DNA of 64,000 bases from Tilletiaria anomala UBC 951 (taxonomy: Eukaryota; Basidiomycota; Exobasidiomycetes; Georgefischeriales; Tilletiariaceae), in assembly GCF_000711695.1 (NCBI RefSeq), contig NW_013547016.1, forward strand, positions 62,001-126,000. The letters are read 5' to 3'. Position numbers and translations under genes: made by a program. The notes beneath the pieces were generated by a model. It worked only from the letters and a program-made list of their open reading frames with translations. It made no database searches and was not told the DNA's origin. Shown here one piece after another: positions 6,360 through 44,118 of this stretch. How positions within the stretch are numbered: the stretch's first letter is position 1; the number at the start of each line of letters is the position of its first letter.

Positions 6360-9129
6360 TCATGCGACGTAGCGGTATACGCCTCGCTGGCCCTCAACGC
6401 GCTCCATGTAATCCTTTTCGAGCAGCGATTCGAAAGTCTTCTTGAGCTCGGACGCCTCAACGCCGAACCGACCCTTGATCTGCTCCACCACCTCGGTCAT
6501 TAGATCTGAGTGCTTGATCTCCCTCTTTGCCTTGAGGACTCGCACCGCCGCGGCTTGCAGCACGAGCTCGCGGTCGATCAGCACACGCTGCTCGGTGTCC
6601 TTCTGCTCCTCCTGCGTCTGAGCCATCTGGACCTGGTTGATGCGGATGCGCAGCCGATCGTTCTTGATTTTGTCGTTGACTGAGAACGTGTCGCCGTCGT
6701 TCACGTCTCTGCCTTGTGGGGATTTTCGCAGGACGCGTGTTGGGATCGGTCCGCAGGCGAGCGACTGCAGGCTGCGCTTCAGTTCGACTGCCTCGAGACC
6801 TGTCTGCGCGGCGATGTCCTTGTACGGCAACTGCTTGCCAGACTCGATGCCGTTGAAGAGGGTGAGAATGACAGCTTGATACGTCGAGACGAGCAACTCC
6901 TTTTGACCCGCCTTAGGGAACTCAGCGATGATAGTGTTGTTACCGAGCGAATGCTGCCATTGCAGTTTGCGCCCCGAGTTGCGACCCTGGTAAAAGACGT
7001 TGAACGTCTCTGTCGCTTGGGCCATGTCTGTCGGCAGGATGATCTCATGCTGTGGGTACGTCGGCCAGTGTGCTTGGGTGAGAACGTTGACAGACATGTC
7101 AAATTGATAGGGCAGCTCGCCACTGCCACGCGCCTTGGCCTCGAACCTCTCCCACGCCTTCATGATATCGTCCGATAGCGCGACGTCCTTCAGCATCGTC
7201 TCGAGCTTGCGCGTGAAGTCCGGTCCACACTCCTCCTTGAGCTTGAGTAGCATGCTCATCTCCGCGTCAGAGCTGGCCGACTTGTTCAGCAGCAGGCGCT
7301 TGGCAAAGTGTCGCGTGTAGAATTCCTCGAACATGTCCTTGTCCTTAGTGAAGCGGAAGAGGACGAGGGCTTTGTTCAGCGCCGTCTCTAGCTCGGTATC
7401 CGACATGGTCTTGTTGCCGCTGCGCAGGAGGACGTCGACGTGCTTGGCGATCAGCTCTGGCGGTTTATTATCGCGTCGATTGACACCCCATGCAAACGCA
7501 TCGCGCATGCTCGCGGAAAAGTCGTTGTCGGCGTGGAAAGCATCTGCGACGATCGCGTCGAGATTGCGCTTCAGCGCCAGCAGCCGGTCAACCATCTCGT
7601 CATCCTTGCTCTTGTCGTTGACGACCGCCTCTACTTTGCCACGGATGTACGCGCCGAAGGCAGTGCGCAAGCGCGCAAGCGGTGTTGCTGCTGCATCTTT
7701 GCTGTCGCTCGCCTGGGCTTTGTGGTGGCTGGAAGCAACGTGGAAGATGGAGTAAAGATGCGAAAGAGTGGCGATACCGGCAGCGTCAAACACACTTGAT
7801 ATGCCTGAACAGAAGGGAAAATGAAAGGGAAAGGTCAAACATGGTGCCGGCATAAGAACGACTTTCACGCCCACCTGTGCTGAGCTCCTCCGCGTGGTCG
7901 TTAGCGACTCGGTTGTAGACGATCGACATGGCTTTTCCTGCGTAAATTTCATTGTCGTAGAGCCACCCGCTCAGCACAGTCTCGTGTTCCACGACGCTCG
8001 CCATCCAGTGCGCATATAGAGCTGCGTACGCGTCCTGGCCCGCACTTTTGCTGGCAATGAGCTTGAGCGGAGCGAGGCGAGCGTAGTACGCTTCAGTTGC
8101 GGCGTGTACTGCATTCTTGAGCGCGTCGTACGATTGCGTCTCGCAGAAGAGCTTAAGGATCGACTCGGCATATAGCTGCTGGAAAGCAGACGCTTCGATC
8201 GAGCGCGGCGGGAGGGGCTGCTTACCCGCACTCGATGATACCAGCGCTGGCGCCTCAACTTGCGGGATGCGGCAGAAAGTGTCGACCGCCCGCGTCGTGA
8301 AGGGCAGGATGGCAGCGCAGAGCGTCGGATCCCGCATGACCTGGTATGCAAAGCTGTCGATGGCGAGTTCTTTGATCTGGAAGCGTAGCTGGACATCCTC
8401 ACCCTCGGCCGCATCCTCGTCAGCTCCGAAGGCACTACGCTTTGCAGGTAGCCGAGCTGCGTGCCGGAAGGCGGCACGATCGAGCGGCAAGAGAATGTTG
8501 GCGACGAGATGCGTGCGCTCTTTCCAGGTGGTCCACGACTTCGCGAAGGTGTCGAGCCAAGCCTGTTCATTTTGCAAAGCCTGTTCCACAGCCGTCGCAC
8601 TGACGTCAGACGAGGGAGGCGGGAGGTCCGAGCGCAGCTGCTTTGTCAATGCCGTCAAGCTCTTTTCGATCTCCACCTTGACTGCTTCGTAGAGCGACTG
8701 CAGCGGCTCGTCATCCGACGTGCGCAGACTGTACGAAGCAACCAGCTCGCATTGCCTGTAAAGCGCGTTGTAATCGATGTTCAGCGAGCGGGGGGAGCTG
8801 CCCAAGTCGAGAAGCTGACGCAAGCCATGGACCAGCTGCTGCGAAGAGGGCGGACTGGAAGCACCTGAGCCAGCGTCTGTGGGCGGTGCGACGAACTGGA
8901 GCTTGAGAGGCTGATGCGTCGTTCGAGAACCCTGCAAGTGCGCACCGGCTAGTGATCTGCGGGTCGTCTGCTGGGCTGTCTGCGCGGCAGCCAGCTTGGC
9001 AACAACGGAAGAGAACCCGCCGTTGCCATATTGCCTGGACTCTGCGCAGCGGGCAGGGTGACGCTTGTCCTGCAGCGCATCGAATGCCTCGACCAGCGGG
9101 CCGAGGCGCGCAGCCTGAGCGAACGCCAT
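6360..9129 (-). CDS. CUL4: Cullin, CUL4-type ubiquitin ligase scaffold
   Basis: Scaffold of a cullin-RING ubiquitin ligase. Two exons, 9129-7875 and 7804-6360, are joined in phase 1 across a 70-nt intron, giving about 900 residues. The N-terminal half is the cullin repeat region. The C-terminal half has the conserved core (LLRSGNKTMSD, FAKRLLLNKSASSDAEMSML, LTQAHWPTYP, GRKLQWQHSLG). The winged-helix end reads VRVLKAKREIKHSDL and closes with DYMERVEGQRGVYRYVA. The lysine in VRVLK sits where NEDD8 is attached in the family. Wording such as AKRLLLNKSAS, SGRKLQWQ and the YMER end is closest to CUL4, so a DDB1-DCAF type complex is the likely partner. The start is the first ATG, and the upstream 580 bp carries an E2F/MBF-like palindrome. 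Confidence 0.92.
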
Positions 9130-21394: not shown

Positions 21395-22308
21395 TCGCAC
21401 GCCGAAAGGCATCAGCGCCTCTTCTCGACTCTTGTCCCCCTGTGTACCGCTCACTGTCCTGCCTGTGCTCTTGCGCACGTGCATCTCGCTGATATGCGCT
21501 TCGAGTCTTTCATATTCTGTCTATCGTCGCACTCGCTGTATCAATAGGATGATTGATGAATTCCATCTCCCCCACTGCACGCGCACACATGCCCATGCGC
21601 AAGGTGCGAGTCGTCGTATGCCCCCGCACTTGGGGTCCATCCCCAGTTCGGTAGCTTCCCACCAGCGCCCTATAGATACAAGGCGGTTCAGAGCTGCTCG
21701 TATGCTTCCAAGGACATTGATTATTGCCTTGTGGTATTTTCCTATGCGCTGCGCTTGCGGCCAAGCTACCAAACCCTCCGCTAGAGGTGGTCAGCGGGTC
21801 AGTCAAAGCGTCGCAGGTTCGTCTCCGAAACAGGAGGCGGAAGTGCGGCGACTGTCGCCACAGTCACTAATGAAGATAGTTCAAGCATAAACAATGCAAT
21901 TGTACGGATTTACAAAGGGGCCACATGATTTTCTTTGTGTAAAAGCAGCCAATGACCTTCCACAGCGGTCTCCCCGCCGCACCGCGCCTCAGTGTTTTCG
22001 GTGCCTGCCTGCCCCTGGGCCTGGCAGGCACTGGTATATACTACTAATAAAGCAAACAGGGCTCCACGCTGGAACTTGTCGTTTTGCCTCCACCACCCCC
22101 ATCTCGACTCCCTCCTGAGTCCACCTGCACGAGAGCGCTACGCTCTCGGCAACAGTCGTCCCCAGGCATCTACGTTTCTTTTATATATGGTGAGAAAATG
22201 CGCAGACGGAGCTGGATCGAGGGAGAGAACGGCGTGCTGATCGAGCGTGACTGCGCACGCCAACCAGTCCCCCGAACCACTCAACTGTGACCCTTCACGA
22301 CACACATC
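21395..22308. other. Intergenic region and leader of the bZIP gene
   Basis: Holds the 3' flank of the Gln/Gly-rich gene and the promoter/leader of the bZIP gene. TATATAC-like elements occur near 22033 and TATATATGG near 22183. Two upstream ATGs lie in the last 125 bp. No other gene is supported. Confidence 0.45.
22187..22290 (+). promoter_or_regulatory. Two overlapping short upstream reading frames before the bZIP gene
   Basis: ATG at 22187 opens an 18-codon frame (including the stop) ending at 22240. ATG at 22198 opens a 31-codon frame ending at 22290, 18 bases before the bZIP ATG. If both are in the mRNA they could limit translation of the bZIP factor. GGTGAGA right after the first ATG could instead be a splice donor of a leader intron. 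Confidence 0.35.
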
Positions 22309-24095
22309 ATGTCCGCCACCATTGATCCCAATGTCCTCACCATGCCATCGCCTCCACAATCATCATCGCCCGATTACAACGACAACAATGGCAATGATTC
22401 AATGACATGCCACTCTGCTTCGCCGGCGGCGTCAATAGCCTCCTATCTGTCGTCGCCTGCCGCCGCCAGCTCGTCACGCAAGCGAAAGGCCTCTTTCAAT
22501 GCCAGGCCCCCGCAGAACATCGACGACCCGGCGCAGCGCAATCTCTGTCCTTCGAACAAACGAGCGAAGCCTATGTCTCCAGAGCGCATTGCGCGCCTCG
22601 AGGCTCGCCAGGCAAGAAACAGGGCATCGGCGCAGGCTTCTCGGGACAAGAAAAAGGCATTCATCTCCACCCTTGAGGTCGAACACAAGCAGCTCTGCAA
22701 AGAGAATGTTATGCTGAAGCAAGAAAATGCTGCCATGAACAACAAGATGTCCAGTCTCGAAAACAGGCTCAAGGCCATGGAGTCCATGATCAAGTCCATC
22801 CTCGACCCAGCCAGCGGCCAGTCATCACTCGTCTCGCTTCCTTCCATCGCACCGTGCATCCCATCTTCAGTAGCCTCGACATCGATCAGCTCAACGACTG
22901 CACTGAACCTTACGACTGACGCCGCATCTAGTACCACCTTTGCAACAGCGCCTTCTGCAGCGCCTTCCTCCTCTTCCCTTGCAACCACTTCCACGTCTCT
23001 CTCTGTGGCACCGGCCGCGCCGTTCGCCGCCCCGCACATCAAGCAGGAGCCGGTAGCCAGCTGGACGGAGGGATCAGAATCGAGCGCTCGTCTCCCCGCA
23101 GTGGAGGCGTTTACCCAGCAGCGGGCGCTCTTCTTTCCTCCTCCAGTATGGCTGTCAGCAGCTCCAACAATGCTTTTTGCGCAAGCGCGGCAGTATCGGT
23201 CGCGGCTGCATTGCAGAGAATCGACGGCGAACATGTGGTTGCAGGGCAAGGCACGGCAGGAAACCACGGCAGCAGCGGATCGGGCATATTACAGAACCGG
23301 TGCGAAGATGCGGCGACAGCTTCGAGCGGATTCAAGACAGTCAGCGCCAGCAGGATCGATGAACAGTGTGCAGGAGGTAATAAGGATGGAGCGAACACTG
23401 AAGGGTGCGCCACGGCCATCACCATCAAGCAAGAGCCCTCAGACCATGCGGACACGGGTAAGGTTACGGTTGGTATTACGACCTCCACCACCGCTTCCCC
23501 TGCACTCTTCGAGCCATCGCCGGCGGCCATCCTCAACGATACGGCTGTGCCTCTTGCGCAAGCTGGTGGACTTGGCTTGATCCTCGGAGACAACAACGAC
23601 CATGTCCAGCCTTTCTTGCCTCACGACAGCGAAGAGCAGCATGAGCCGCCTACATTGACGACCACCAGCGGAGATAACAGCATCGATTCTGCCAGTGCAA
23701 GCACCCCGGCATACTTTGATGACGAATTTGCACAGACATTCGACCTGGACGGCATGCTAGAAGACATGGCTCAATCTCGGCAGGAGCAGTATCACGACAG
23801 GAAGGAACAGCAGCAATGCGGCCACGACGGCGGGGTTAGCTTTGGTGGCGCATTTGACCTTGACCTTGGCCTTAACGTCAACCTCGACATCGACTTGGAC
23901 CTCACTGTGCGCAACGATGCGAGCCTTTACGATGCACTGTGCGCCGGCACGCGCTTTGCTGGTGACCAGCAGGAGCAAGACGACGATATCAAGCAGAAGC
24001 AATCGCAAGATGGTCAGATCGTCCAAGCAGATAACATACCCTCTACGCCGCCAAGTTTTGCGGAGCCGAGGGATGCCGTTGCTTGCCACGTTTGA
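22309..24095 (+). CDS. bZIP transcription factor, Hac1/Cib1-like, with frame change in the middle
   Basis: The basic region reads RIARLEARQARNRASAQASR followed by DKKKAFISTLE. The N-x7-R signature and RNRxxAQxSRDKK wording fit the Hac1/Xbp1/Cib1 class that drives the unfolded protein response. A leucine zipper follows (CKENVMLKQENAAMNNKMSS). Upstream are Ser/Asn-rich residues and a KRK basic patch; downstream are Ser/Thr/Ala-rich sequence and a sumoylation-type IKQEP. Near 23,060-23,160 the coding signal moves to another frame, which runs to 24095 with a second IKQEP and acidic stretches (DDEFAQTFDLDGMLEDMA, LDLGLNVNLDIDLDLTV) typical of activation domains. If read straight on, the first frame ends at 23580 with a basic, Pro-rich tail (423 residues). 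Removal of a segment of length 3n+2 is needed to join the two; one consistent choice (23061-23158) gives about 562 residues. Confidence 0.82.
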
Positions 24096-27000
24096 GCCCA
24101 ACACTGTCAATCGTATTGCTGCTTCCTGGGATCTCGTCGGCCGCGCTGTCGTTCCCCTTCCGTCCCGTTCGGTGCCCTTGACCCACTGTGGACTCTTTAT
24201 CATGTACGGATAGCATCTCTCCGCTCTTGCTTCGCGTTTCGGCTACAATGAATGACATGGCTGTGCCTCTGAATCCCCTTTTGTGCTGCAGGCAGCGCCT
24301 CCGGGCACCTAGCGTTTGCGCGCGGGTGGAGTGTCGCGAAGGAGACGGGCTGGAGCCGGGGAGTTGGGAACTCTGGAGTCTGGACATTGAACGGCTCAAG
24401 ACTTCAAGAGGACTGACACGCGTTCGTGCCTGCAGGGCTGTTTTAAATAGACCAATAGCTTAGAGACTCCCTTCATCTGCATATAAAGTATTCAAATACT
24501 CTCACAAATTACACATACACGCTGGGATGGCCAAGCGTAGGGGACGGTGCATATGCAGAGCAAGGGGGCTACTGGCGAGGGGCTCACAAGTCACAGACTG
24601 TCGCAGGGTATTGTGCACACATCTGTTGATAGACTGTTGCATAGTCGTCCCGAGTATCGAGACCAGAACTTTAGATAAGATGCTTGGAATGTGATGAAGA
24701 TCTGAAAGATTTGAGAATTTGGAATCGTATGGGGAGGTAAACCAACGATCAATTTTGGTCATTTTGTGGAATATAAATTGACAATGAAAGTTAACCGTTG
24801 TGAACAAGGCGTCTCCCGTTCATCGAACAATGATCAGAAGCGATGTCTCCTCCCTTCCATCTCCTTTCGAGTGATCAAGAGGCTCTTCCAATCCAAGTTG
24901 AATCGCAGTTCTCAAAGTGCTTTGACCAAGTGCTCAACTCAACTCAAACACTCGATTTAGGTTGTTGCATGCAATGCCGCTCATCCTTCTCTCAATCCTC
25001 GATCCGACTGAGTACGGAAATACTGGAGAGAAATGCCGAGTGGGGGAAGTGGGGTGGACCGTAATAAGAATGTAGAAACATGGCCGCACTGCTCGAGGAC
25101 GCGGGCCCGCAAGCTGCACAGGTTTGCCTGAGTGCCGAGGGCGTTGGGCCCAATGATAGATGACTGAGATGAAGGGAAAGCCTGCAAACTGCGAAAGGGT
25201 GTATTACATACATTTTTAAGAATGAAAATGGTTCAAGGAATAATAGCCGAGGCCATCAGGCGGCGGGGTGACATGGTAACTCACTATCTAGCCTTACCAA
25301 GTACTCATTCTTCATTACTCATTGCTCATTACCGCATCTATCATGAGGAATGGTGCAGACGCGTGACAAAGGGTTTGTTGCACACTGCTCACTACATACT
25401 CCCTGCTCACTGACCAGATCAGCATCGTAGTGAGTGACATCCAAGCTCCAACAGTACCAGCCCGTCGGCATACAAGTCGCGTTTGCGATTTGTGTCCGTA
25501 CTCTTCGGTGGCAACATGTATCACGACATCGTGCATCATGCATCATGTGCGGCAACACAAATTTTCCGTAACCTAGTAAAGCCCGTACTGCAGCAGACTG
25601 CAGCCCCCACGGGGGGTATATGCTACAGCACTGACAACAACTCTGAGCCCCTGAGTGCTGCTGAGCCTAACGCCCGCAAACTGACACTATACCTCGCTCG
25701 ACGTACACGGTACACGTCCTCATGATGTAACTGCTGTGCCGTACATCTGGACAAGAGTAAACCATGTACACACCTCGCGGGGTGTCGCCACTGCCAAGTT
25801 CTCTGCATACCATTGCCTATTCGCGTCACTGGATAGTTCAGAAAAGATGATAGTAGAAAGTAAAAAGGGTGGAACCGGACATGATACGGAATCAGAAATT
25901 AGTCGATATATATACATATACTGTATCTGAATTAATAAACTGTGGCGTCCATAAAGGAAAGTCAGGAACCGCGATTCCGTAGAGACGCTCGTTCCGGTTC
26001 TCTGGTTCGCACGTCCAAGTCCAACCCTGTCTAAAGCTCAAAATCAACAGAATTTGTGCATGTAGCACAATACAAATGTTGGAGGCAACAGTGAGTGGGA
26101 GCACGATGCCGGCGGTCGGGTGAGGTTGTTGCTAGCAGTTAGACGCCAGTGGTAAGTGGAGTACCTACTGGACGCGACGGCGGACGCTGGTGGACGCCAG
26201 AAGGAAATTCATTGTTTGACAATCGACGCTGGCAGGCACTGGTGGTTGGCGACTGGGGATGGCAACTGTGACATCTCAATGCCTCTTAAGTATGTTACAT
26301 TTGCCCCTGTTGGAGGGTGTTTGATGTTTGAACGCGTGCTTGTGATTGTCGAAGGCTTGTCTCTCTCTGTTGCGGCAGGGTTATTGCTGACATGTCGGGA
26401 GCAGAGATTCAGACTGCTGCCTCCTGCGCGCCTGGGCTCTGGCAATTGGAGCCTCCGCTCTTCTGGCTTCAGCCTTGTACATTACATAACATGACACATG
26501 CTATGTATATAGACACCTTGCAACTTTCTTCTGCCACGTTCCACGGTCGCCGGTCCGCAAACTGAGGACTGTCAGCATTCGGCACTCTGCAAGGGACGGT
26601 GTTCCTTTTGCAAAGTATATACGTAGTATTTACCCATGTATTTAAAGTATGTCGCATATGAAGGTACGTAAGTAGGAATGATTTTATTTTATTTAGCGCA
26701 TAAATATACCTCCATCACTGCGCCACAGCTGCCCCTTCCATGCTGTTCTGCCGCCATTATGTACGACTGCAGGAAGGTGCAGCGATTGAACGCCGGATCG
26801 CTGCATTTGGGAAGGCTGCATATATATGCACCCAAACAAGATATTTGCTGTATAGTATGTACGAGTATATATATATAACATAGATGCTACCTACCTTGAA
26901 TAAATTGTATGTACATATGACCTCCCACAGACCCACGCATCGCAGCTCTTATCCATGTGCTAATATATTTTCCGTGGCTTGCCCAGTTGTGCTCAGCTAA

Positions 27001-36339: not shown

Positions 36340-39078
36340 GCGGAGGCTCATGCACGTTCGCTTTGTGCTGCACAGCGTTCCTCCACTCCCAACTGCGTGA
36401 TCACCATTGCTGCCCATTCCAACACCAACAAACCAAATCCCACCGATTGGGACTTGGGTTTCCAGTGCACCCCTCCCTTTTTCCCGGGGCCGTGTTCGGG
36501 CATTGCATACATACCTCCCCCTATTCGGGCTCTCGCCTCCGCAGCACTGATTCAGGGACACAATGCGTGAGAGCGGCTTCACAGGTTCTTTTAATTGTTT
36601 TGCGTAGATGCCGACCATCATCACACGGACGTTTGGGATGAAATACGATTTTCGTCATTCGCTTGTAAAAGAGATTGCACTGATGTGCTGCATTGACCTA
36701 TTTTTTCGCACTCTAAGTTGAGGCTGAGAAGGCTCATTTGTTTGCTGGGCTCGTGCGTGCTGCGGTTGCTGCGGGAGTCAGTGGCGATTAGCCCCCGGAA
36801 GGAGGGTGCGTGAGACGCTCGACGCTTCAACTTCCTCAGATTCTCCCACATCTAAGCGGCATGAAGCGGTCCGCGCATTTATTTGGGATTTTCTGCTTTG
36901 GTGAGGTATGAGAATTGGAGGGCTGACTATATAATACTGCCAGGCACACAAGTTTGCCGCAGCACGGTGCGCTCCTATTCCACGATTGAGAGGTGGAATC
37001 CAATCGTAGTCATCATTTGTTTGTTTACGATGCGCGAGGCACGAACGGACTCGCCGGTGGCGCCTCTCAGCGCGTGCATCAGGCGTTGATGAGCTCGGCC
37101 GAAGGCACACTTGATTGCACGCACGGACGCGGCAGATTTAAATGTACGTCCATCGCAGTACGTGCGTAATATATTATAGGATCGCAGTCCATGTCGTCCT
37201 CCCGGCATATGCCCGATGCCAATGTAGACGGCGGAGAGAAGCGAGGTATCTGAAAAGTCTACACAAGTGCATGCACGACTGCGCGTGGCGGGCTGCCTGA
37301 CTTCTTGGGTCATCGTGAAAGAAAGAAACATCGCGCCGCCGCGATGGGGCCCGCTGGACTTGGCAATTGGCAACTGTGGCATCAACGAAGGGTTCTCGAT
37401 ACCCCTCTCAAAAGCAATTGGCTTGCCTGCCTGCTGGCTGTCCCGCTGTCGATTTGCAATTGCCTTGGGCTTTGGAGGATGAAGAAGTGAAGAATCAGAT
37501 GTATCCGCGTGCCTGGCTGGGTAGCAGCCGGCAGGCTTTCACTGCTCACATGATAGAAGGGTGCAACGCTACAGCGCCTTGGGATCTCAGGCTCCCCTGG
37601 ATGTTTGAGACATGCGGCTTACATGACGGAGCGCTAAGCACGCAGCAGCAATTAGCACGCTGGGGGCGCAAACGGCCTGCGCACGAAGCGCTTGAGAGCA
37701 CGATCCAAAAGGGCGAGCGACAAGGTAACACCACTCTTTCGCGAAACGCCTGTGGAGAAGTCTCCTGCAGGCTTGCTTGGTTCATGGCTGCTGCTGCACT
37801 TACGGGAGCGGTGGTCCGTTTTTTGTTGGAACATCTTTCCAGTCTGCTGGGGCAATTGGTTGCAGGTCTACGAACGCACGGTCCGTCTGAGCGCGCATCA
37901 AGGCTGAGTTCATGCGCCCATGCGATGGTCACATAGAGCATATGGTTTCAACAAGGATTTCTCCATGTCGCGATACGTAGAGGCACGCGTAACAGATAAG
38001 ACCCGAGTCAACCTCTTTTCTCTCTCTCTCCTGTGCGCTCTTTCGTTTGGCGACAGTGACCCGATCGGCCTACCCATCGAGGTCGGTTCTTCATTGACGT
38101 CGGTTGAGCAGGCCTGCGGATATGCATCTGATAGAGCAACCTCGAGTCGGTGTACCGAAGGCCAATCTGTCCCTGGCGGGAGCATGCATCACCCTTCGAC
38201 TGCGGAGAGAGGAACTGTCAGAGTTTTCCAGATTCTAGTAGAGAGCACTGGGTGAGTGTCTTCAAGAGGGCTGGCTTCACTCACGCATTGGGTCTGTGTA
38301 GGTTGACCCACTACGCTGAATTGCACTGGAGCAGTGTTACCAGTGGCGCGCGCTAGTCCGGCGGCTTCACCAGCCCAGTCAGCTCAGCCCAGCGAGAAAG
38401 AGGGCGACGGCCAGAGTCAAGTGAGTGGCGTGCTGCCCCCCCAAAAGTCAGAGTAAGCCACACATCGTGCCGCCATCCTATCCCACACAGCACACACGCT
38501 CAGCATGGTCACTAAACGTCGAGCGCATCTCGTAACTATGGCTGGAATAGGTTCTCCGCTTTCAGCCACACCTCGTCTCCTCATCACGTCAAACCCACGC
38601 TGCACTAAGGCCAGCAAGAACCCTGGCTACCCCCGCCTGGCTTTGCATCCATCCCTCCATTCACCCATCCATCTCTCCTCTTGCCACGGGGCAAGGGCGG
38701 GCCAGCGCCAGCGCTATTGTCACTCGTCCGGTTGCGGCTTGGCTCTGGTTGCACCGTTGACCCGATCAACGCATCTATCCATCCCTCCTTCCAACACATA
38801 TCACGCAAAAGCAGCAGCTTGGGCACGTCCAGATGCAGGCCGCACTGCACCCTTGCTGCTGCTTCTTCTCCTTGTCGCCACGCAGTTCGTGAAGACCCCG
38901 TCACGCACACCTGCCCTTGGCAGCAGAATAAGATTCTGAGCACGACGCGCGCCGCCCTTCTTTTCTTTGCGCACAGTGCGCCCCTGTAGACGGAGGAAGA
39001 GGAAAAGGGGCGGACAAGGGAGGCCAAAAGCAACTTACCTGTTGCCGAAGGTAGCCGTGCGGGCGGGTGGTAGGTAAC
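36340..39078. other. 2.7-kb intergenic region
   Basis: No supported gene or RNA. Short CATCCATCC-type repeats occur near 38,645-38,680 and 38,775-38,795. Open frames are short or low complexity without conserved motifs. The right end is the promoter of the ARID gene. Confidence 0.45.
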
Positions 39079-39244
39079 ATGGCGAACAACTATGGGTCTG
39101 CCGGAGGTAGCGGCGGTGGTGGCTTTGACTGGAACGCTCTCTTCCTCAGCAGCGGGTTCATGCCTGGCAATGGTGCAGCCGGCGGAGCAAACGCGAACGG
39201 CGTCGGTATCAACGCTGCTGGTACTTTAGGATATCAGCAGCAGC

Positions 39245-39284
<40 letters not shown>

Positions 39285-42200
39285 GCAGCAGCAGCTGCAG
39301 AGAATGGCGGGCATGATGGCCCAGCCATCTCCACATCCGCATCCACAACAGCAACACCCTCACGCCCAGCAGCAGGCAAACAGCGACCTGGCGGCCATGC
39401 TCGCTAGCTTCAACCAGCAGAACCCGCAACAGCAACAACAACAGCAGGTCATGCAAGGCATGTTCAACAACAATTCATTGCAAAGTTACGCCATGGCTGC
39501 TCCCGGCGGTACCAGCGGTGGGGCGAGCGCGTCAGGAGCAGGAGCGGGGGCCGCGGCCGCTGGGTCCATAGGCCTCATGGGGTTTCCGCAGCAGGCCCAG
39601 CATGCTCTTCAGCAGCAGCAGGCGGCGCTGTCGCAATTCGGCTCCTCGCAGCAACAGCAGGGCCAGCAGCAGCGTCAGCAACCCATGGCTCAACAGCAGC
39701 AGCAACGACAACAAAAGCAGCCACAGCCGCAGCAGCAAATGGCTGCGGGCGGCATGCTGCCGTGGCAACAACAGCAGCAGCAGCCCACTCATACGAACCA
39801 CAGTGCAGCTGCGGCGGCTGCCGCTGCCGCAGCGGGCTTATCGGCACAGCAGCGCGTACAGCAACAGCAGATGATGTCTGGTTCTGCGGCAGTGGCGGCA
39901 GCCGCTGCAGCGGTGCAGGGGCGATCGCTGATGCAGCAGCCACAAGGCGCCCCTGCTCAACATGCGCAGCAGCACATGCCATTCATGACTTCGCAGCAGC
40001 CAGGCGCTGCTCAGCAGCAGGGCGGCGCAAGTGCGATGAGCATGATTGCTCGTCAGCAGCAGGCGCAGCAGAAGGTGCCAGGCCAGCAATCACAGCCACA
40101 GCAGCAGCAACCGCCTGTGCTAGGGCTTGGTCCAATGCAGAGCACTCCGGCCCAGTTGGCCGGCTGGCTGACCCGCGCTGGAGCCGGCGTCACGGGAAAG
40201 GACATGTCGGATGCACAGCGTGCTCAGGTGAGCTCGGCGTTTTGTCGTCACTCTCATTGCCTGCGTCGCATTTCTTCTCGTGCGGCTGTGCTGACCCAGG
40301 ATTCGCCCCCTCCCCTCACCCTCTTTTTCCTTTTGGAACCGTGTTTGCAGCTGCAGGCTGCGATAGAGAAGCAGCGCCAGCAGCAGCAAAACCAGCAGCG
40401 CGGCTTCCAGCAGCAGTACAATGTGGTCTCCACGACGGGAAACGGGCCGGCCGCTTCTGGCAGCATGGGCATGTTCACCATGCCCGACTTTTCTGGCGGT
40501 CGGCAACAGCAGCAGCAGCAGGCGCCACATCAACCGTCGCATCCGCAACAGCAGCCACCCGTGCAGGGTGGCCAGGCGCAGCCGGGCATGACGCCGCAGG
40601 CTCAGTACGCGGCGCTCGCGTCGCAGAACCCCGAGGCTTTCGTCAACATGCTCAAGCAGCGCATGTTGGGCATGCGCGAGAAGCTATCGCAGACGAGCGG
40701 CCAGCAGCGCGCCATGCTCGAGAAGAACATCAACGACGCACAGAACATGCTCAACACCATGCGTGTACGCATGGCCCAGCACATGCAGCAGCAGCTCGCG
40801 TCGCAGGGTCAGGGCCAGGGCCAGGCACCGCCCACCGCCGCCACTGCCGCGGCTGCTGCAGGTGCCGGCGCAGGCGGCGTGGGCGCGGGGCCTGCGGTGA
40901 GCCCGCAGCAGCAGCACCTGCAAGCAGCGCGCCCGCCGCCGATGAGCGCCATGGGCGCCATCACGCGGCCATCGCCTCAGCTCGGCCGGCCGGTGTTCAG
41001 CCCGCCGTCGGCTGCGGGCACGCCCATGTTGCAACAGCAGGGCAGCCCTCTCCTTCAGCAGCACCAGCCGCCGCCGCCAAGCAATACTGCACCGTCGCCT
41101 TCGCAGCGCAGCCAGACCAGCAAGGTTGGCACACCCAGTGCGGCCACGGTGTTGGCGTCCGGGAGCAACAGCACTGTTGCAGCCGCAGCGATTGCCGGCC
41201 TGCCGGACCTGTCCGAGGAAAAGTTCAAGCGCGCGCTGAACGATATCATGGCCAAGCGCGGCACGCCGATCAGCTCGCAGCCCATGGCGGGCGGCAAGCC
41301 GCTGGACTTGTACAAGCTCTACACGATCGTGCACAACCTGGGCGGCAGCGAGGCGGTGCAGCGCAACAACCAGTGGGTCAGCGTCGTCGCCGCGCTCGAC
41401 CTCGCACCACCAAGCTCGGCGATGGCGATGACGCTGGCGCTCCAGGTGAGCCAGCAGTTCAAGAGCCTCATCGTCCCGTTCGAGGAGACGTGGACCAAGG
41501 CCATGAACCATATGAAGGAGCAGGAGGAGTTCATGGCCCGCATGCAGCAAGGCGGCATGCCCCTCATGCCTGGCCAGCCGCCACAGCAGGTGCAAGCTCA
41601 GCAGCCACAGCTACAGCCTCCGCTGCTGCCTGCTGGTCCCCCGCCGAAACTCAGCCAGGAACAGCTTGCATCAATGGGCGTCACGCAAGAGCAGTTCGAG
41701 ACTGTTTACATCAACCAGCAGCGCATGCGCATGCAGCAACAGCAGCAACAACAACAACAACAACAGCAAACCCCGGAGCTACAGATGCGCATCCAACAAC
41801 AGCATCAGCAGCGCCAAGAGCAGCTTGCAGCCGTGGCACAGTTGCAGGCGGGCGCTGGTGCTGGTGGAGCAGGTGCAGCCCAGCCTGGTGGACCCATGGC
41901 CTCGCTCATGCCGCCGCCTATGGCGCAGCAGCAGCAGCAACAACAACAACATTGGGCGGCGCAGCAACAGCAGAATACCGGGCAGCCCGGCCAGGCGCCA
42001 GGGCCTCAGCAGCAGCAGGGTAGTCAGGTGCAGGCACCGGGGACGTGGCAGGTCAACTCGAGCGGGTTCCCACCTGCCAAATCGCCGGTGACACCGGAGA
42101 TGCTCGAGAATGCGAGAAGAACCATCGCGTTGATGGAGGAGGAGGCTTTGCGGGATAAGAGTGAGTGCAATTGTTGCGCTTTTGTTCATTGTCTCACAGG

Positions 42201-44118
42201 GAGCTTGCTGACGCGCTGTGTTTCGTCCTTCCTAGAACCCTGGCCACCCGTGGCAGACATGTCCGAACAGGAGCGCCAAGTTGTCTTGGCGCAAATCGCT
42301 CGCATTGGGACGCTGGAGCGCATGGTCTCTGCATTGATGCCCGCGTTCTTTGCGATGAACGGCAACGTCCTCGCAACGCAGAAGCTGACAGCGATGCTAT
42401 TCGTCCTGCGCGACCAGATGCGCATGGCCGAGTCCGGCCAGTGCATCCTGCGCAGTACGGACCTGGAGAAGATGAAGATGCAAATGACACGGTGCATCTA
42501 CTTCGTTAAAAGCAGCAACCCCGAATTGGCGCGGCAGGTCATCGAGGAGAAAGGCCTCCGCGACTTTGTGGGCGCCTGGGCAAACTCGTCTTCGCAGCAA
42601 CAACAGCAGCAACAGCAACAGCAACAGCAGACCAGCGCGTGGCAGCAGCAACAGCAGCATGCAGCTCAGCAGGCTCCTCAGCAGCAGCAGCAGCCGTCGA
42701 TCAGTCGTGGACCCTTAAGAGGTCTGACCGCTAACGACTCGCCGAACCTCCAGGCTGCATCTGCTTCTGCATCCGACCTCGCACAGTCCGCTGCCAAGCG
42801 CACCTCTCGTGTCGAGGAGATCAAGCCGCCACCCGCCAAGCGTACGAAGATGGCCAAGTCTGCTTCTTCCGCCTCGATCGCCGCAACCTCTGCGCCTGCG
42901 GACTCTAGTCCGGTTGCTGCCGCTGCAACGTCCGACACGCCGCCGTCCGCGGACAACTCCGGGTCGCCTCAAGCCAAAGGCAGCGCCAAGAAGGGCGCCA
43001 AGGGCGGCTCTGCTGCCGCTAAGGGCAAAGGCCCTGCGGCTATGAAGAGAGGGAAGGCAGCAGCAGCAGTCACTACTGCTACTGCGGTGGCGGCGACAGC
43101 AGCGAACAAGGACAACGAGGCTAGCAAGGAGACAGAGACGGCGAAAAAGTCGCGTGCGGACATCGTGGCCGATGTCAAGGGCGACATGGCCAACGACGAA
43201 GAGCGCAAGAAGCGCGACGGCACTCTAGGTGCGCTTTCCGTACAGGAATCGCAAATGCGCGCGCTCGAAGAGGGGCAGGCGAGGCAGCAGCGAGACAAGG
43301 AGCTATCTGAAAAGGACCCTGCCGCATTTGTCGAGCAGGCCTTCCAGGATTACCTGTCCTCACAGCCTGCGCCGTCCCACAATCCGTTCGGCGGCCCTTT
43401 CGGGTCCACCATGAACATCGGAAGCATGGCTTTGCCAGCAGCCAGTGGTGCAGACTCGAAAGGGTTCGACTCGCTGCTCGCGATGCTTGGCCAGGACAAC
43501 AGTGCTTCCGGCGGCACCGCAGCTATCAGCATGTCGAATCCGCTTCTATCCATATCAGGCACCGACAGCATTCGACAGCAGCTAGATGCGCAAGCATCTG
43601 CGGATATCGACCTCTTCGACTTCATCGATGTCGACGCCATGGGACCTGAGACCTTTCGAGACTTTTCAGCCTTGACGTCAGGGGCAACAGCAGCGACCGG
43701 TCTCGGTCTGTTTGAGGACGGGTCGATCGCAACGCCGGACCTGGGTGACAGCTCTCGCATGACCTCCTCCAGCTCTGCAGCTCCGACGCCAGCACTGTCC
43801 TCCTCTGCCACCAACTCCGCAGTTCGAAGCAAGCTCTCCTCTGAAATGGCAGCAGCTGGATTCGACATGAGCTCGGCGAGTCCTTTTGGGATAGCCGCTG
43901 ACAGCAGCGATGAGGGCGAACCCAGTCCGACCGACGGTGTCTCCCTTTTGGGCGGCGCCGTCGCCATGGCAAAGGATTCGGTCTCTCTCAACGATAGGTC
44001 AAAAGGTGACGAGCAGGCATCTTTTGGCACTATTGCTGGCAGCGGCGGTAATGACAACTGGTTCGACGCGAACCACTTCCTCGGCAACGAGCAGCCTTGG
44101 GCGCTGTTGAGCTCGTAA
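39079..44118 (+). CDS. SWI1: ARID-domain, poly-Gln chromatin protein (SWI1-family SWI/SNF subunit)
   Basis: Very large (about 1,613 residues) and dominated by Gln runs, the longest of 20. An ARID DNA-binding domain lies at about residues 668-770: EEKFKRALNDIMAKRGTPIS, KPLDLYKLYTIVHNLGGSEA and NNQWVSVVAAL, with the helix-turn wording typical of SWI1/ARID1. Another conserved-looking helix (QRMLGMREKLSQTSGQQRAM) precedes it. A C-terminal region (EQERQVVLAQIARIGTLERM, LRDFVGAWA) is also ordered. Between lie disordered Ala/Gln/Pro segments, then a Lys/Ala-rich basic stretch with KRGK and acidic motifs. Exons are 39079-40227, 40351-42160 and 42236-44118. Both introns (123 and 75 nt) are multiples of three without stops, so retention would also be translatable. 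The expected role is targeting of the SWI/SNF remodeller in the nucleus. Confidence 0.88.
39235..39294 (+). repeat. CAG/CAA tract coding 20 Gln
   Basis: Twenty consecutive Gln codons near the N-terminus of the ARID protein, CAG at both ends and pure CAA in the centre. Further shorter Gln runs occur along the whole gene (for example 41734-41769 and 42595-42629). Confidence 0.85.

Follow-up and report, generated by a model that had tools for sequence, protein, structure and literature searches.

How might a gene whose bZIP domain lies in one reading frame come to use an acidic C-terminus encoded in another? The question is raised by positions 22309-24095 (+) of a 64,000-nt stretch of Tilletiaria anomala DNA, hereafter the window. 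Yeast Hac1 and human XBP1 are activated by the excision of a piece of their mRNA, which joins a second frame to the first, and the original prediction read the T. anomala gene as Hac1/Cib1-like. Its layout is as follows:

22309-23580 (+): unspliced ORF in frame 1, 423 aa, with the bZIP, the first IKQEP and a basic tail; ATG at 22309, stop at 23578-23580
22588-22767 (+): bZIP domain, residues 94-153 (PF00170, E 2.2e-8; PF07716, E 6.4e-7)
22932-23577 (+): stretch in which both frames are open, from the ORF map
23119-24095 (+): predicted second exon, read in frame 0 after splicing, with the second IKQEP and an acidic, Leu/Asp-rich end; stop at 24093-24095

The bZIP that had been claimed for the first frame is recovered by the Pfam domain search (PF00170, E 2.2e-8), upstream of the predicted splice sites and in an ORF open to the stop at 23578, and the two IKQEP motifs are found, as described, in frame 1 and then in frame 0. 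Frame 0 is open at 22932-24092, between a preceding stop at 22929 and the terminal stop at 24093; the overlap of the frames, originally given as about 22,900-23,580, is thus real and slightly shorter (22932-23577, about 640 nt). By a codon-usage model trained on seven further ORFs of the window, coding passes from frame 1 to frame 0 near 23110-23149: this interval holds 14 of the best 15 change points, the remaining one lying at 23053, and neighbouring scores differ little. Given the two ORFs and this switch, the claim that coding continues in a second frame was a correct observation of two successive coding frames. An overlap of this size is also compatible with a base error or a recent frameshift that split one original frame; however, the change point lies at Ire1-type sites that 11 relatives carry too, and one relative seems to have both forms. 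Because the change falls near sites that the relatives share, such an error is extremely unlikely.

When frame 0 is recoded, just 144 of 5000 recodings leave frame 1 open as far as 23577, and selection may therefore keep the unspliced frame open, although this evidence is modest. Two short candidate uORFs, 22187-22240 (17 aa) and 22198-22290 (30 aa), both on the + strand, lie at most 122 nt before the main ATG; in other fungi, uORFs are proposed repressors of unspliced HAC1 (PMC8071499, available text). The database entry for this gene (P0001) is a 330-aa version, 22309-23298, which ends inside frame 1 at a position with no stop codon and from which the second frame is absent.

Where would the two frames be joined? 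The S. cerevisiae Ire1 site follows the rule CNG|CNGN or CNG|ANGN in a 7-membered loop (available portions of PMC6037481 and PMC8104961), and for Hac1-type mRNAs the rule is given as CNG'CNGN (PMC8071499, portion available). Two such sites stand close together near the codon-usage switch:

23082-23130 (+): possible outer stem of 6 bp around both hairpins, 23082-23087/23125-23130
23089-23109 (+): 5' hairpin, 7-bp stem 23089-23095/23103-23109 with the 7-nt loop CCGCAGT
23096-23101 (+): 5' site CCG|CAG, predicted cut after 23098; RLPA conserved in relatives
23099-23118 (+): predicted Ire1-type intron, 20 nt; excision joins frame 1 to frame 0 with no stop
23114-23124 (+): 3' loop CAGCAGC on a stem CC/GG of 2 bp only; pairing probability 0.01
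23116-23121 (+): 3' site CAG|CAG, predicted cut after 23118; QQR conserved in relatives

Excision of the 20 nt yields a single 588-aa frame without an internal stop. The 5' stem consists of seven uninterrupted pairs, one of them G-U, with pairing probabilities of about 0.9 for the upper four and 0.08-0.29 for the lower three. Such a hairpin is rare. In dinucleotide shuffles of 22932-23577, a CNGCNGN loop with a stem of 7 bp or longer arises in 28 of 5000, and such a hairpin together with an in-frame partner (at least 2 bp) in 2 of 5000; synonymous recoding of frame 1 gives a hairpin of this kind in 72 of 5000 cases. Of the 1526 CNGCNGN loops on the two strands of the window, 3 have at least seven perfect pairs, one of these inside a CTG repeat.

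The thermodynamic picture is less favourable to the 3' side, where the hairpin is disfavoured in folding (2 bp, probability 0.01) though its loop sequence fits. The minimum-energy fold differs from the twin-hairpin state, which with its outer stem reaches -19.2 kcal/mol versus a minimum of -22.1 kcal/mol. The region is hardly more stable than its shuffles (z -1.61; 16 of 200 equal or better), and a shorter piece of it shows no stability above shuffles (z +0.40; 119 of 200 equal or better). An Rfam scan of 22000-24500 returned two snoRNA-type matches, both far under their gathering scores.

Other CNG|CNG pairs had been proposed instead. The CAG|CAG twins at 23116-23121 and 23156-23161 are present as described and, as had been recognized, removal of the 40 nt between them leads into the third frame; the 40-nt pair is ruled out. 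Ire1-type splicing through the 98-nt pair 23058/23156, the junction preferred by the original prediction, does join the two long frames arithmetically; this part of the proposal stands. However, when the suggested hairpin check is applied, neither of its CNGCNGN loops has a stem (0 bp at both; 1 bp at 23156 if the loop is shifted by one), and the proposal had overlooked CCG|CAG at 23096-23101, which sits on a 7-bp stem and pairs in frame with 23116-23121. With the sites conserved in relatives mapping to 23096-23101 and 23116-23121 as well, use of another pair is extremely unlikely.

The comparison with relatives began from a search with residues 1-280 as query, which found six proteins, the window's own on top. 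A profile built from these six led to 27 proteins (P0001-P0027), the 7990 candidates that share most words having been scored; 15 of the 27 are named, from Testicularia, Sporisorium, Ustilago, Moesziomyces, Melanopsichium, Kalmanozyma, Pseudozyma and Violaceomyces. At the protein level, 12 of the 27, the window's gene included, carry RLPA or RLSA followed by QQR after the bZIP in the unspliced frame: P0001 (the window's own), P0002-P0011 and P0013, an intron-retaining gene model. The joined form, [L/V]PAAD, appears in eight (P0012, P0015, P0016, P0019, P0022, P0023, P0025, P0027), the gene model skips the motif in five (P0014, P0017, P0018, P0020, P0021), and neither form is seen in two (P0024, P0026). 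Because the residues preceding PAAD differ in P0022, P0023, P0025 and P0027, these models may also contain a conventional intron. The signature starts 166 residues past the bZIP anchor here; in the 10 relatives measured, this distance is 139-173 residues. The smut Cib1 proteins, comparison with which had been suggested as a check, have counterparts of both sites, 23096-23101 and 23116-23121.

Intron lengths can be deduced by reading CCG|CAG...CAG|CAG from the protein signature in the residues after 130: 20 nt here, 56 nt in P0003, 62 nt in P0002, P0005 and P0006, and 65 nt in P0004, P0007-P0011 and P0013; that all are 2 mod 3 is a consequence of this counting scheme. The published Ustilago maydis cib1 intron is 65 nt (PMC8071499, available part), and its agreement with the deduced 65 nt provides an independent check on these lengths. 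The residue after the signature Ala is Ala or Val in 10 of 11 relatives, which supplies the G needed at loop position +3; in P0003 it is Arg, and a +3 G is impossible at the aligned 5' site. The window's gene and P0002 have the word RLPAVEA in common; a 7-letter match with P0002 occurs in 3 of 2000 shuffles, so that the sharing is rare, chance being not impossible.

A comparison between frames, with P0013 excluded from the unspliced set, indicates where a relative's frames meet. P0004 and P0012 have 247 identical residues in a run and diverge at the site; past it, the other frame of the P0004 DNA accounts for 42 residues of P0012 (maximum 5 in 1000 shuffles), an agreement over 42 of 141 testable positions that then gives way to divergence. 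The two look like both forms of one gene, and the comparison places the junction of this relative's frames at the corresponding position. P0010 and P0021 agree between frames at 58 of 144 positions, from an offset of 6. P0010/P0023 and P0009/P0018 agree for 7 and 8 residues only, as expected for different species, and lend no support.

In P0002-P0011, the unspliced-frame tail after QQR is itself conserved among smuts, e.g., RLRLKIKVPRRLPPRLNLYLWAR, and it overlaps a conserved part of the spliced frame to form a dual-coding stretch. A bZIP tree drawn without P0001, P0016, P0023, P0024, P0027 and P0028 gives little resolution, with 1 of 18 inner branches starred, and the row of the window's gene is a long branch.

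An ordinary spliceosomal GT-AG intron could also join the frames. On paper, 66 candidates between 40 and 250 nt long that match the donor in 5 or more of its 6 letters do so; one of them, 23022-23146, has a long pyrimidine tract before its terminal CAG. Moreover, the RNase-domain intron of the organism's own Ire1 gene (L005:3974-4034) is best fitted with a weak GTGCAG donor, and weak donors may therefore be used in T. anomala. By contrast, 23022-23146 is without a CTNAY branch motif; among the best 25 of the 66 candidates, all six donor letters are found in seven, whose donors lie at 23366 or 23405, in the later part of the overlap; and conservation in the relatives falls on the Ire1-type sites. 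Such an intron is very unlikely to explain the frame change; the two outcomes named at the outset as contrary, constitutive splicing of a GT-AG intron and a base error, both look unlikely.

Ire1-type splicing calls for its enzymes, and the genome (18.4 Mb, 202 contigs) was searched for their domains. The Ire1 RNase domain is matched on contig C9 (E 3.0e-21 and 5.2e-13); the same ORF also contains the terminal part of a kinase domain, which scores under Pfam's cut-off, and kinase motifs and an upstream membrane-like stretch can be read by eye at the locus. Two exons match yeast IRE1 (7e-30 and 1.1e-9), with RNK and HHF as in yeast, the HHF lying across the short intron; these are catalytic residues. 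A tRNA-ligase kinase domain is present on contig C16 (E 9.0e-11). The genome contains at least six bZIP_1 matches; the sole match of the smut Cib1 P0012 at E <= 1 is the locus described here, at 22423-23124 of the window.

With the sites kept in smut orthologues, Ire1 and tRNA-ligase domains in the genome and an in-frame 20-nt excision, the proposed IRE1-type switch is well supported. Judged from sequence, the gene is very probably a Cib1/Hac1 orthologue under Ire1-type splicing in a smut-like basidiomycete. The unspliced mRNA would encode the 423-aa bZIP protein with its basic tail. Upon ER stress, cleavage by Ire1 would follow G23098 and G23118, both in CNG|CNGN loops, with the loss of 20 nt; tRNA ligase would then join the mRNA halves, shifting the frame into the acidic C-terminus and producing a 588-aa activator. 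Here we infer the cleavage, its stress dependence and the activating role of the tail. Because the tail is without HMM similarity or a database match, the label of a putative activation domain comes from its position and composition: the frame-0 ORF alone has no database match at E <= 0.001, and an HMM of 12 hand-picked smut C-termini scores it at -7.4 bits versus up to 11.0 for shuffled copies (445 of 1000 shuffles reported).

Elsewhere in the window, a cullin gene at 6360-9129 (-) also extends over two overlapping ORFs in different frames, with profile matches to cullin positions 276-619 and 16-248, the second just under the cut-off; this split is probably an ordinary intron. At 39067-44115 (+), a 1683-aa ORF combines ARID and Med15_fungi domains in one protein.

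The splicing mechanism is already known; the unusual point is the 20-nt length of the intron. Like the gene here, smut Cib1 has a bZIP and Ire1-type sites at corresponding places, and joining shifts the frame by 2 mod 3. The intron differs: it is 65 nt in the published U. maydis gene (PMC8071499, available sections), a deduced 65 nt in seven and 62 nt in three relatives, and 20 nt here, so that the predicted intron is about one-third the length of that in known relatives. The C-terminal tails of smut Cib1 proteins are not alignable by HMM with the tail here.

Cryptococcus neoformans HXL1 is likewise a basidiomycete Ire1-spliced bZIP mRNA, with CAG at both intron borders; unlike here, its intron is 56 nt and is preceded by a 55-nt conventional intron (PMC3154848, text available in part), none being needed upstream in T. 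anomala. The closest match in length is hacA/HAC1 of Aspergillus and Verticillium, with a 20-nt intron between CNG|CNGN sites (PMC8071499 and PMC3154848, partial texts). These ascomycetes, however, belong to another phylum, and the protein relatives of the gene here are the smut Cib1s. In the literature covered, outside which most subscription papers fall, short ascomycete introns measure 19-26 nt and those of basidiomycetes 56 or 65 nt, and no basidiomycete with a 20-nt Ire1 intron was found.

These lengths suggest a tentative scenario, somewhat short of an even chance when its parts are taken jointly: the Ire1 intron of this basidiomycete lineage would have shrunk from the 56-65 nt seen in relatives to 20 nt in an event separate from that of the ascomycetes; one compact three-way junction would accommodate the two cut sites, the outer stem 23082-23087/23125-23130 compensating for the short 3' stem of 2 bp; and the unspliced frame would be maintained over about 150 codons as a further functional protein. 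Provided that the intron is truly 20 nt long, this element ranges in length among smut relatives down to the size known from ascomycetes, a range relevant to the minimum spacing of two Ire1 hairpins and to whether a weak 3' stem needs neighbouring pairs. For a very divergent smut-like Cib1, the likely positions of Ire1 cleavage are placed to the base, and the RLPA...QQR signature of the unspliced frame allows such sites to be found in a protein that can otherwise hardly be aligned.
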